In this document: positions 8,515 through 12,255 of the stretch, piece by piece
Layout of the letters: the number at the start of each line of letters is the position of its first letter
How positions within the stretch are numbered: the stretch's first letter is position 1
Source of the DNA: Peristeroidobacter agariperforans
GTDB taxonomy: Bacteria; Pseudomonadota; Gammaproteobacteria; Steroidobacterales; Steroidobacteraceae
DNA length: 64,000 nt
NCBI RefSeq assembly: GCF_004138335.1
Contig: NZ_RYFW01000004.1
Span: 372,001-436,000, forward strand
Direction of reading: 5' to 3'
Notes under the pieces: generated by a model
What the model saw: the letters and a program-made list of their open reading frames with translations, nothing else
What the model was told of the DNA's origin: nothing
The model's database searches: none
Made by a program: the position numbers and the translations under genes

Positions 8515-8697
8515 TTAGAGCGGGCGCTGCCAGGTGGTGATCGAAGACGAGGCTTGGGCCTTCAACTGCTCCAGAGCCACCGACTGGACCGCCGCCTCAG
8601 GCTTGGAGGCATTCGTGCCTGCTGCGCCCATGCTGGTGCTCACAGCGGTGGACATCAGGCTGGCAGCAACCACCATAAGAATTGGAAAGCGTTTCAT
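8515..8697 (-). CDS. Small exported peptide, 60 residues, unknown function
   Basis: Unrecognised small protein. The N-terminus is a plausible Sec signal peptide (Met-Lys-Arg, hydrophobic stretch, cut near MGAAG), leaving about 35 residues that end in ITTWQRPL. It starts 20 nt after the repeat-peptide gene on the same strand and has its own ribosome site (GGAG six bases before ATG), so the two are very likely co-transcribed. Its terminal RPL echoes the KRPL of every repeat unit in its neighbour. Possibly a second secreted peptide of the same system; no database family is recognised. Confidence 0.6.
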   Translation of the reverse strand: MKRFPILMVVAASLMSTAVSTSMGAAGTNASKPEAAVQSVALEQLKAQASSSITTWQRPL

Positions 8698-8717: not shown

Positions 8718-9152
8718 TTAGGCGACGGTGATGAGCGGGCGCTTGCCGCCAACGACGCCATCAGCCAGCAGGGGGCGCTTGCCACCCACCACGCCATCGG
8801 CCAGGAGCGGACGCTTGCCACCCACCACGCCGTCGGCCAGGAGCGGACGCTTGCCGCCAACCACGCCATCGGCCAGGAGCGGACGCTTGCCGCCAACCAC
8901 GCCATCGGCCAGGAGGGGGCGCTTGCCGCCAACCACGCCATCAGCCAGGAGGGGGCGCTTGCCGCCAACGACACCATCGGCCAGGAGGGGACGCTTGCCG
9001 CCAACCACACCATCGACCAGGAGGGGGCGCTTGCCACCGACCACGCCATCGGCCAGGAGGGGACGCTTGCCGCCGACCACGCCATCGGCCAGGGCGACGT
9101 TCGCCATCAGTGCAAAGGACACAGCGAACGCCGAAATAATCTTGCTACGCAT
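8718..9152 (-). CDS. Secreted tandem-repeat peptide precursor, ten 12-residue repeats
   Basis: Protein of 144 residues made of a signal peptide (1-22, cut after VALA), ten units of DGVVGGKRPLLA and a short tail ending ITVA. Each unit carries one dibasic Lys-Arg followed by Pro. Among units only one residue differs (Ala to Val at the end of the second), while many wobble bases differ, so the peptide sequence is conserved by selection. There is no domain beyond the repeats, no Cys, no aromatic residue and no adjacent modification enzyme. It could be a multi-copy peptide precursor, an adhesive or structural repeat, or a secreted decoy. It starts after GGGAGA and lies 53 bp from a perfect CRP palindrome. 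Confidence 0.75.
   Translation of the reverse strand: MRSKIISAFAVSFALMANVALADGVVGGKRPLLADGVVGGKRPLLVDGVVGGKRPLLADGVVGGKRPLLADGVVGGKRPLLADGVVGGKRPLLADGVVGGKRPLLADGVVGGKRPLLADGVVGGKRPLLADGVVGGKRPLITVA
8725..9086 (-). repeat. Ten 36-bp in-frame tandem repeats
   Basis: Ten head-to-tail 36-bp units encode the 12-residue repeats of the secreted precursor. Read on the plus strand, units vary at unit positions 3, 6, 15, 18, 21, 24, 27, 30 and 36. These are all codon wobble positions of the minus-strand gene. The only other variable position is 31, in one unit, which causes the single Ala to Val change. Confidence 0.95.
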
Positions 9153-9210: not shown

Positions 9211-9229
9211 GACATAACCGATGTTTAAT

Positions 9230-9245
9230 TGTGATCCTCGTCACA
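9230..9245. promoter_or_regulatory. Perfect CRP/Clp-type palindrome
   Basis: TGTGA (9230-9234), six bases, TCACA (9241-9245): a perfect consensus CRP half-site pair. Its centre is about 40 bp upstream of the predicted transcription start of the repeat-peptide gene, close to the -41.5 of class II CRP promoters. It could also act on the divergent kinase gene, whose ATG is 255 bp away. Confidence 0.75.
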
Positions 9246-9492: not shown

Positions 9493-12255
9493 ATGACATC
9501 TCCCAGAACCGCCGAGGGGCGGCGCCTAACGCAAGTGGGGCAAGTACTCGAAGAAGCGATGCAGCTTCTGCCCGAGGACCGGGAGCACTACGTTCGCCAG
9601 CAGATTGCGGAGCCGCAGGAGCTCGAGGAAGCTCTGGGCCTGCTCAGCGTCTATCCCGAGGCGGCCACCAGCGGGCCTATCTCACGGGCGGTCGGCGCCG
9701 CGTTCTTACGCTCCAGCCAGACAGGCCGTCACAGCTTGTTGGGCCACGTCATTGCCGATCGTTACAAGATAATTTCCGTGCTCGGCCGAGGCGGGTCGGG
9801 CACCGTCTATCTGGCCGAGCGCGCCGATAAGCAATATTCCGCGCAGGTCGCGGTCAAGATCATCGATGAGAGCGCCGCGGCTTCCTTCGGCCTGCGTTTC
9901 CGCGCCGAGCGGCAGATTCTTGCGAGCCTCAATCACGCCAATATTGCGCGCTTGCTGGATGCAGGCGAAACCGAAGGACATCAGCCCTACCTGGTCATGG
10001 AATACATCCATGGCGAGCCGGTGGATCAGTTCTGCGATCAGCGGCAGTTGAATCTGCGCGAACGGCTCGAGTTGTTTCTCCAGGTCTGCGCCGCGGTGCA
10101 GTACGCACATCAAAACCTGATCGTCCATCGCGATCTCAAGCCCGCGAATATTCTGGTCACGGGCGATGGCCTGCCGAAGCTGCTGGACTTCGGTATCGCC
10201 AAGCTGCTGGACGCCAGCGATGTCACCAAACCGTCAGATCTGACGCGCATGAACGACCGCCTGCTCACGCCCGAGTACGCGAGTCCCGAACAGATTCTCG
10301 GCAGGCCGGTAACGACCGCGAGCGATGTTTATTCACTGGGCGTCGTTCTGTATCAGCTGCTCACGGGGCTGCGCCCGTACACGTTGTCGTCCTCCGCGGC
10401 CAGCCAGCTCGAACTGGAGCGCGCGATTTGCGTGACCGATCCGATGCGTCCGAGCGTCGCCGTGCAGGGAGCATTGCGTGCAGGACCGAAAGATGACGAA
10501 CCATCGATCTCCGTTCTGGCCAATGCTCGCAGCACGACGCCAGACAAACTGGAGCGCGGCCTGGCTGGCGATATCGATGCCATCATCATGCGCGCGATGC
10601 GCAAGGAGCCGCAGCACCGCTACAGCTCCATCGATCAGCTCATCGGTGACATTCGACATTACCTGGCGAACGAGCCGGTGCAGGCCCGGCAGGGCAACTG
10701 GGCCTATTACACGTCTCGTTTCATCAGGCGCAATCGGCTGGCCGTCGCGACTGGCACGACTGTCGCGGCGCTCATCGTGAGCTCGCTCATTACCGTTTCC
10801 ATCCAGCGCGCCGCCGTTCAAGACGCTCTCGAGCTGGTCACCCAGGAAAAAGAAACAGCCGAACGGGTGTCCGGACACTTTCGCGACATCTTTGCCGCGG
10901 CCAACCCCTACGTGAACTTCGGCCGCGAGATGTCGGCGCGCGAGCTGTTGGATCAGGCGAGGCTGGTGATCGATGCGGATCCGAACGTGAATCCGGAGGT
11001 GCGCTCGGAGCTGCACGTCAACATGGGGGTGGCCTATCGACGCCTGGGCGAACCCAACGAAGCTGTCGACCAGCTCGAAAAAGCCTTGCACCTGCGGCGT
11101 GAGTCGAGCGGCGGATCGAGTCCCAAGATCGTGACTACTCTGATCGAGCTCGCGGTCGCCGAGCGGGATGCCGGAAAAGCTCAAGCCTCCGATGCGCACT
11201 TCAGCCAGGCGCAGACCATGATGGCGAGTCTCGGCGAGGCCGACCCCGTGGCCAAGGCCAAGCTGCTGGCTGAGATCGGGCGGCTGGAGACGATGCGCAG
11301 CCGGCCCGTCGAGGCGCTGGCCGCGTTCGATGCAGCGCTGGAATTGATGCGCCGGGCGAAGGCGCCGCGAGATCCCGAAATCGCCAGCATCTTGATCGAG
11401 CAGGCCAATCTTTATACCTGGGTGGACGACTATGCCCGGGCCGAAGCAGTCGCACGCGAGGCGGTCGAGATCTACGAATCCGTCGACGTGCGGCATCCCG
11501 ATCGAGTCAAGACGGACTTCGTGCTCGCCGAAACGCTGTTGTACCAGGGCAAACTCGCCGCGGCCGCACCGATCTACGAACGCACGCTGGCGACTCAGCG
11601 AGCGCTGTTCAAAGCCAATCCAGCGGTCGCGGAAACCTTGTCTTCGCTGGCCCAAGTGCGTCTGGCGCAAGGCGATACCGACGAGGCGGAGAAACTGGTC
11701 CGCGAGGCCATTGCGATTCATCGCAATGCGCATAGCACGGCGTACGCCAAGATCGGTTTTCTGCAAACGATGTTGGGAACAGTGCTGATCCGACAGGCCA
11801 AGTTCGAGGAAGCCGGACCGCTGCTGCGCGACACTCTGGAATTGTTTGGCAAGAGTCTGCCGCCCGATCATCAATACGTCGCATCGGCGGAGCACTATCT
11901 GGGTGAGGTCCTGGCGGCCACCGGCAAGCTTGCCGATGCCGAAGCACATCTCATGGCCGCGGCAAACCGGTGGAAGCGCACCGGGGCGCCCGAATGGCGC
12001 GCGGCGCGATCGGCTAGCGCGCTTGGCGAAGTCCTGCACAAAGAAGGCAAGCATCGAGAGGCCGAAGCGAAGCTCGTCGACAGCTATCGCATCCTGGCTA
12101 CGGCGGATGGCGTCGATTCGGCTACCCGGGAGTTGGCGCGCTCTCGCGTGATTCGCTACTACGTCGATACGAGGCAGCGAGAGAAATTGGATGCGCTCAT
12201 GCAAGAGCTGCATCCGGAGCGAGCACAAAACATCAGGGCGCAACGATCGCTTTGA
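9493..12255 (+). CDS. Membrane Ser/Thr protein kinase with TPR domain
   Basis: PknB-type kinase of 920 residues. The kinase domain (about 90-390) has the glycine loop GRGGSGTVY (from residue 98), ATP-anchoring Lys122 in VAVK, catalytic Asp214 in HRDLKPAN and the DFG motif at Asp232, so it should be active. One transmembrane helix (about 413-437) follows, then a long helical region (about 470-900) of tetratricopeptide repeats predicted to be periplasmic. The ATG lacks a strong ribosome site. In related bacteria such kinases often sit beside ECF sigma genes; none is here. The substrate is unknown. Its upstream region is shared with the repeat-peptide gene. Confidence 0.93.
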   Translation: MTSPRTAEGRRLTQVGQVLEEAMQLLPEDREHYVRQQIAEPQELEEALGLLSVYPEAATSGPISRAVGAAFLRSSQTGRHSLLGHVIADRYKIISVLGRGGSGTVYLAERADKQYSAQVAVKIIDESAAASFGLRFRAERQILASLNHANIARLLDAGETEGHQPYLVMEYIHGEPVDQFCDQRQLNLRERLELFLQVCAAVQYAHQNLIVHRDLKPANILVTGDGLPKLLDFGIAKLLDASDVTKPSDLTRMNDRLLTPEYASPEQILGRPVTTASDVYSLGVVLYQLLTGLRPYTLSSSAASQLELERAICVTDPMRPSVAVQGALRAGPKDDEPSISVLANARSTTPDKLERGLAGDIDAIIMRAMRKEPQHRYSSIDQLIGDIRHYLANEPVQARQGNWAYYTSRFIRRNRLAVATGTTVAALIVSSLITVSIQRAAVQDALELVTQEKETAERVSGHFRDIFAAANPYVNFGREMSARELLDQARLVIDADPNVNPEVRSELHVNMGVAYRRLGEPNEAVDQLEKALHLRRESSGGSSPKIVTTLIELAVAERDAGKAQASDAHFSQAQTMMASLGEADPVAKAKLLAEIGRLETMRSRPVEALAAFDAALELMRRAKAPRDPEIASILIEQANLYTWVDDYARAEAVAREAVEIYESVDVRHPDRVKTDFVLAETLLYQGKLAAAAPIYERTLATQRALFKANPAVAETLSSLAQVRLAQGDTDEAEKLVREAIAIHRNAHSTAYAKIGFLQTMLGTVLIRQAKFEEAGPLLRDTLELFGKSLPPDHQYVASAEHYLGEVLAATGKLADAEAHLMAAANRWKRTGAPEWRAARSASALGEVLHKEGKHREAEAKLVDSYRILATADGVDSATRELARSRVIRYYVDTRQREKLDALMQELHPERAQNIRAQRSL

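Follow-up and report, generated by a model that had tools for sequence, protein, structure and literature searches.

The window, that is, the whole stretch of 64,000 nucleotides analysed here, belongs to the 7.65-Mb genome of Peristeroidobacter agariperforans and contains a gene for a small tandem-repeat protein with a predicted signal peptide, a gene for a second small exported protein closely behind it and, on the opposite strand, a divergent gene for a transmembrane Ser/Thr kinase (Table 1). The second small gene is probably carried on the same transcript as the repeat gene. Beyond these genes, the neighbourhood is unremarkable (an abhydrolase, a chemotaxis receptor, an FMN oxidoreductase, NikR, HupE and a TonB receptor).

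Table 1. Features of the repeat-gene locus, with positions counted from the first letter of the window.
Feature	Position	Strand	Basis
Tandem-repeat exported protein, 144 aa	8718..9152	-	ORF, repeat and codon analysis
Signal peptide, residues 1-22, ALA/D cleavage motif, MRSKIISAFAVSFALMANVALA	9087..9152	-	By eye from sequence
Ten 12-residue units, DGVVGGKRPLLA	8727..9086	-	TRF and unit-by-unit reading
Second small exported protein, 60 aa, ending in ...TTWQRPL, starting 20 bases after the repeat gene	8515..8697	-	ORF and sequence
C-terminal QRPL of the second protein, resembling the KRPL of the units	8518..8529	-	C-terminal comparison
Degenerate promoter-like element	9215..9245	-	Placed by alignment; no exact match
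Transmembrane Ser/Thr kinase with TPR ectodomain, 920 aa, divergent	9493..12255	+	Pfam, alignment, model
Kinase domain, residues 91-306	9763..10410	+	Pfam PF00069
Hydrophobic segment, residues 417-435, net charge of +4 on its N-terminal side	10741..10797	+	Segment scan
TPR superhelix, 21 helices, residues 482-906, periplasmic by charge rule	10936..12210	+	AlphaFold2 model; Pfam TPR_12

A preliminary description of this DNA had presented the repeat protein as a secreted chain composed of a signal peptide and ten identical units. The signal peptide, recognised by eye, and the ten 12-residue units are borne out, but only eight of the ten read exactly DGVVGGKRPLLA, with a terminal V in unit 2 and a terminal IT in unit 10, which is followed by VA. 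Moreover, a signal peptide implies export, to the periplasm at least, but not release from the cell. TRF detected a 36-base array of 10.0 copies (8733-9093). Nine of the ten DNA columns that vary among units 1-9 are third codon positions, and pairwise comparison of all ten units yields 160 differences in codons for equal residues versus 40 in codons for different residues, whereas random change would favour non-synonymous sites by 2.3 to 1. Given this third-position bias and the excess of change in equal-residue codons, the array is not a product of chance: the ORF is real, and its reading frame is under purifying selection. The closest relative is 92% identical and carries T instead of the first V of the window's unit in all ten units.

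In agreement with the earlier statement that the protein belongs to no known family, the repeat chain had no match above the cut-off in Pfam (PGRS, 13.7 bits; cut-off, 27) and none in NCBIfam, and a PDB search returned a single chain with an E-value of 0.78, nothing significant. Its AlphaFold2 model has a pLDDT of 54. Among the relatives read, the repeats were never part of a large structural protein, the outcome that the preliminary description had set against its own proposal. The lack of Ser, Thr and aromatic residues emphasised there is a property of the window member and does not extend to the family. It is also correct that no maturation enzyme lies among the annotated neighbours (using Pfam, we recognised no modification or maturation enzyme among 13 neighbours in the window and 10 genes of one type B locus, as defined below), but the informative neighbours, the kinase and the second exported protein, had been passed over. 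With its repeated equal cores, the chain invites comparison with a multi-core RiPP or an antimicrobial peptide; its Sec-type signal peptide, the lack of a modification enzyme among the annotated neighbours and its tie to a kinase instead make this reading extremely improbable, and the judgement that lanthipeptide and lasso chemistries are unlikely is upheld.

Architecture of the divergent kinase

The HRD and DFG motifs of the kinase are invariant in 14 aligned rows. A hydrophobic segment with a flanking charge of +3 to +6 was found in 32 of 35 kinase rows; at L203, L206 and L207, the hydrophobic stretch picked by the script falls inside the kinase. Because basic residues precede the hydrophobic segment, the N-terminus of the protein is predicted to lie inside and the TPRs outside. 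The ectodomain model has pLDDT values mostly between 75 and 95, compared with 74.8 for the whole kinase model (pTM 0.46), and among solved chains, PknS of X. citri (9eed) comes nearest. The TPR domains share a mean identity of 0.41, as opposed to 0.71 for the kinase domains. Partial Mantel tests for co-divergence with the repeat units give 0.35 for the TPR domain and 0.29 for the kinase domain, values that are not separable from shared descent.

Linkage of the repeat gene to one kinase subfamily

What the preliminary description had overlooked is a whole family of repeat genes, with one to three members per carrying genome, which are divergent from a TPR receptor kinase and whose unit is hypervariable between lineages. 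When gene families were compared across 20 loci (the window and 19 other regions), a Ser/Thr kinase with TPR repeats was found divergent from the repeat gene in 17, the remaining three being small or split contigs. Close members of this kinase group number 23 in 14 genomes of the genus and at least 12 in other genera, giving 35 kinases in 25 genomes, and 31 of these kinases have enough upstream sequence to be evaluated. At 28 of the 31, an exported tandem-repeat protein is encoded divergently from the kinase or its sigma gene. At the remaining three loci, the corresponding position is taken by a gene for an exported protein that has two units (L199), three decayed units (L203) or no array but KKPL and RKPL (L151). 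No exported array was detected at 50 control kinase loci, which comprise part of the other kinase loci of the genus (30) and of kinase loci from other families (20, hereafter other-family loci), and a Fisher test on the arrays gives a p-value of 1e-18 with kinship ignored. Only arrays are comparable like for like between the two sets, since the controls were scanned by script and the three low-copy cases were found by hand. The scans for periodic ORFs used thresholds of 30, 24 and 20 residues, and the periodic control ORFs at L215 and L285 (masked runs of N, the latter also with a script-called signal peptide) and at L209 and L278 (real, without a signal peptide) are not included in the counts. 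Also left out were kinases at contig ends (L129, L152, L155 and L204) and repeat ends on kinase-less contigs (L085, L087 and L089), of which L085 and L087 appear to be the missing halves of L086 and L088.

Within the genus, up to 64 candidates per genome were scored, and subfamily members reached at least 840 bits, with the next kinases below 500; of these 23 kinases, 17 had first come to notice through their repeat gene. Beyond the genus, the best four (family), three (order) or two (class) candidates per genome were scored, so that members from other genera may have been missed, and the gap at the edge of the subfamily is small across genera (613 versus 592 bits), such that its boundary rests on the tree. 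In this quick tree of 88 kinases (SH-aLRT support, with long-branch warnings), the label 'none' requires two changes, compared with a mean of 27.5 after shuffling. When 14 loci from other genera were anchored on a gene of the type B operon, two had the kinase, and both also had an exported repeat protein, with the units SSPGGIRPPQVLA and VTKLPRV..; the other 12 had neither. A separate observation concerns the region L151:4450-10875 (G006:C37), in which two divergent kinase genes flank the genes for two small exported proteins, with KPL and RPL as their C-termini and with no array.

Short homogeneous repeats are also found in structural, adhesive or storage proteins, whose linkage to the kinase would then be a matter of chance. 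Both the frequencies given above (28 of 31 versus 0 of 50) and the match between the repeat motif and the C-terminus of the second protein described below argue against this explanation, which we regard as very unlikely.

Variability of the repeat unit

Scanning named genomes for the C-terminus of the kinase gave 15 loci, of which those with a species name belong to Steroidobacter, Peristeroidobacter and Povalibacter and the rest to MAGs. A search with the repeat protein itself matched 9 of 60 relatives, all from the host genus and with the protein's own genome counted. A profile search recovered a match in 10 of the 14 genus genomes, although the match in G013 is the antisense of its repeat gene, which was itself recognised by reading. 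The second member in the window's own genome (C9:2160714) has units of the type DGDTGGKRPV...

Units differ between proteins of the genus (DGVVGGKRPLLA, DGTVGGKRPLLA, DETAGGKRPLFA, GDTGGAKRPLLA, DGSGGGKRPVLQLA and DAVDVKRPQLA), which also contains odd forms (AENNPPMRPLAQF, VSLPPSRPPAQVA and DNIPVRPPVPRLA), and other genera contribute AGGRIPHADVKL, DGTTVPLPPKFM, LDSAPTLPPRAGV, MDTPPASPPHAVV, QDAHPANPPRFAV, LDLPPTVPPHLAM and RDSIGTHPPQFEV. Between genera, the units are wholly unlike (KRPL, PPR, PPQ, RPP), with a proline motif in all. Their near-homogeneity within a protein, combined with their difference between proteins, points to concerted evolution.

The unit borders bear on the idea that the chain is a pheromone precursor, cut at these borders (..LLA/DG..) to release free 12-residue peptides as intercellular signals. 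Unit 1 starts at the presumed signal peptidase site, the units of most Steroidobacter members meet at a similar x-A/D border, and hypervariable peptides next to a TPR receptor recall the RRNPP systems as portrayed in the accessible part of one account (PMC7425212). However, this border is lost in the g6, g3 and g11 members, which have kept the proline motif, and neither a maturation protease nor an importer was recognised among the annotated neighbours, leaving this reading distinctly unlikely.

More distant searches covered 369 genomes of the class, 13 of which matched a KRP-triplet pattern; among the loci returned, the family was present in the window's own genome only. Viral contigs yielded 76 pattern stretches and no relative of the repeat protein. 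Plasmids gave 125 records, each less than 60% identical. The single record read, a hypothetical protein on an enterobacterial plasmid (L322:1794-2396) encoded beside rep and par genes, has a 12-residue period and no signal peptide; it looks like translated iterons, not like kin of the repeat protein.

Match between the second exported protein and the repeat unit

In 25 of 30 rows, the repeat gene is followed, at a distance of about 12-94 bases, by the gene for a small exported protein. This protein was not found in the rows L085 (wrong frame), L086, L088 and L090 (contig ends), nor at L198, where the array is present. Its C-terminus varies along with the unit: QRPL, SRPL, PRPL, ARPL and RRPF accompany KRPL or KRPLF repeats, KAPI goes with KRPV, RPPL with RPPQ, APPR with LPPR and APPQ with HPPQ. 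Across 25 loci, the C-terminal 4-mer matches its own unit with a score of 0.633, compared with 0.442 for the units of others (0 of 5000 permutations), and the match also exceeds permutation within two deep clades (permuted mean 0.558), although close relatives in both sets make these p-values only a guide. The C-terminal 4-mer ranks among the best three of all 4-mers from residue 23 on at 13 of 16 loci, a subset of the 25 that we picked to thin out near-copies. The match is poor at L084 (rank 19 of 43), L153 (8 of 32) and L205 (5 of 39), and the best match lies outside the named unit core at L084, L154, L167, L202 and L206. Judged from these comparisons, the C-terminus of the second protein tends to follow the repeat motif, and the two appear to co-vary.

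Locus types and a candidate promoter element

Type A loci (the window and five more) are without a sigma gene, and no ECF gene was found at the window locus. At type B loci, an ECF sigma factor gene precedes the kinase gene, which is mostly followed by a gene for a SYLF-domain protein; the repeat-gene side contains the second small exported protein, a TlpA/ResA-like protein, a protein without a Pfam or NCBIfam match, TPR proteins, ExbB and two ExbD. At L083, the sigma gene is present and the type B operon is lacking. The operon is spread more widely, its protein without a database match being present in 84 of 120 genomes of the bacterial family. At L091:271-8973 and similar loci, the operon encodes the TlpA-like protein, the protein without a match, two large and one smaller TPR protein, ExbB and two ExbD. 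This operon is reminiscent of the Agl/Glt gliding motors.

The sigma factor at L091 scores 193 bits with TIGR02999 (cut-off, 126). The sequence LQATAVVHEA occurs in the sigma factors at 19 of 21 loci scanned, including the paralogous locus in the window's own genome; the exceptions are L129, which is cut, and L200, which has no match. According to the accessible part of one report, the signature of ECF43 region 2.2 includes a Thr, with QATE in EcfK and QTTA as the consensus (PMC13147305), and the QATA of the family's sigma factors seems in line with this signature.

The sequences upstream of the repeat genes have in common an element of the form GTGA-N18-RTCGCTT (searched with spacers of 16-19). 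An exact match is present at 16 of the 19 loci that have a sigma gene and at 0 of the 12 that lack one. The element has 16 matches in 521,913 bases of family loci, all of them 80-124 bases before a repeat gene or its decayed form, on the same strand. These counts are partly circular because the upstream sequences themselves served to define the element. The non-circular part consists of its absence elsewhere and its genome-wide count. The element occurs twice in 511,920 bases of control loci and 1.55 times in shuffled family loci without the window (457,913 bases). A fuller version with at most one mismatch has a single site in the window's own genome, located before the paralogous repeat gene, and 28 places in 13 of the 14 genus genomes, with repeat genes following 11 of the 12 exact places (the exception being G009:C231) and 2 of the 16 with one mismatch; the reversed control pattern has two places. 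The ECF43-like sigma factor would be expected to use this element. A second class of sites, GTGAGGG..TTTGTCGCTT, was seen in genus genomes (L301, L311, L312, L313 and L319) between genes that, by eye, resemble those for a thiolase and a ferrochelatase.

A promoter-like element of this kind would be just as compatible with a gene that is purely an output. In that case, the ECF/kinase pathway would switch on the repeat chain and the second protein as effectors, for instance as an envelope-protecting or envelope-binding polypeptide in the periplasm or on the cell surface, and the kinase would sense something else. Besides the position of the element at 16 of 19 sigma-gene loci and of its sole site with at most one mismatch in the window's own genome, this proposal has in its favour that divergent regulator-target pairs are common. 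However, at 12 loci, including the window, the gene stays next to the kinase and no sigma gene was found between the two, and the motif, for all its hypervariability, is matched at the C-terminus of the second protein, something a bulk effector would not require. Overall, we hold the output reading to be rather unlikely.

Discussion

With a confidence slightly above even, we propose that the repeat protein is an exported, multivalent partner or ligand, made of short motifs, of the periplasmic TPR domain of the divergent kinase and that the two are part of a feedback circuit. In such a circuit, the TPR superhelix on the periplasmic side would read the proline-centred motif (KRPL in the window), the chain of ten motifs would cross-link receptors, thereby switching the kinase on or holding it in an array, and the second protein, with its single motif, may act as a competitor or a tuner. 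Where a sigma gene is present, the putative ECF43-like sigma factor would be phosphorylated by the kinase and would in turn drive the repeat gene, closing the loop; the window kinase may rely on the sigma factor encoded at the paralogous locus of its genome.

At the level of sequence, the ligand reading is supported by the predicted export signal, the proline-motif units, the similar C-terminal motif of the second protein, the association of both genes with one kinase subfamily and the upstream element. The three poor C-terminal matches, the locus with an array but no second protein (L198) and the 0 of 20 arrays at other-family kinases are points against it. Of the roles suggested in the preliminary description, signalling is the most likely, and nothing seen favours an adhesive or decoy function. 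It is tempting to speculate further that hypervariable, concertedly evolving motif chains, periplasmic TPR kinases, a tuner with a C-terminal motif and a loop closed by a sigma factor define a new ligand-receptor class, a tentative proposal to which we give somewhat less than an even chance. If binding is true, a new class of ligand-receptor pair would emerge. The repeat family provides a natural series of candidate motif-receptor pairs in which joint change of a short motif and its reader can be studied.

Recognition of C-terminal peptides by TPR domains is known from PEX5-PTS1 and from Hsp70/90 with their EEVD motif. The second protein, with a short motif at its free C-terminus, resembles the ligands in these cases by description, whereas the units of the repeat protein hold the motif internally. 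The yeast alpha-factor and apidaecin precursors are multi-copy peptide precursors composed of a signal peptide and equal short units, a plan shared by the repeat protein; unlike in these precursors, there is no family-wide scheme of Lys-Arg cleavage, and KR is absent from the other-genus units read. RRNPP systems such as Alo of Paenibacillus and Rap-Phr likewise place a TPR receptor beside the gene for a short exported peptide, as far as described in the accessible text (PMC7425212). Their receptor is cytoplasmic and their peptide re-imported; here, by contrast, a transmembrane segment precedes the TPRs of the kinase, which would face the periplasm of a Gram-negative cell, its partner is built as a tandem array, and nothing in the arrangement implies an importer.

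The closest known systems are the ECF43/PknS pairs, EcfK-PknS of Xanthomonas citri and EcfP-PknT of Vibrio parahaemolyticus. Like PknS, the window kinase is a Hanks kinase with one predicted transmembrane segment and a C-terminal, putatively periplasmic TPR domain; unlike in the ECF43/PknS module, no Thr-type ECF sigma factor is encoded next to it. In the available portions of the respective reports, no exported array is mentioned for either pair (PMC13147305, PMC8999054), and the 20 related other-family kinase loci, 18 of which have a sigma gene, also differ from the repeat-gene family in lacking an exported array, although PknS itself is perhaps not among them. The periplasmic TPR region of PknS is required for function and may hold the kinase off, and the accessible part of that report does not state which signal is sensed (PMC13147305); the unit, as a 12-residue peptide, offers a candidate partner for TPR domains of this type. 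Open PMC text returned no match for five unit strings and no account of a kinase of this type with an exported, hypervariable partner made of tandem motifs. Thus, the ECF43/kinase frame is already known, whereas the exported hypervariable tandem-motif partner is apparently new within open PMC text and the family libraries, and the repeat protein, a regular and fast-changing companion of one kind of receptor kinase, may be what such receptors read.
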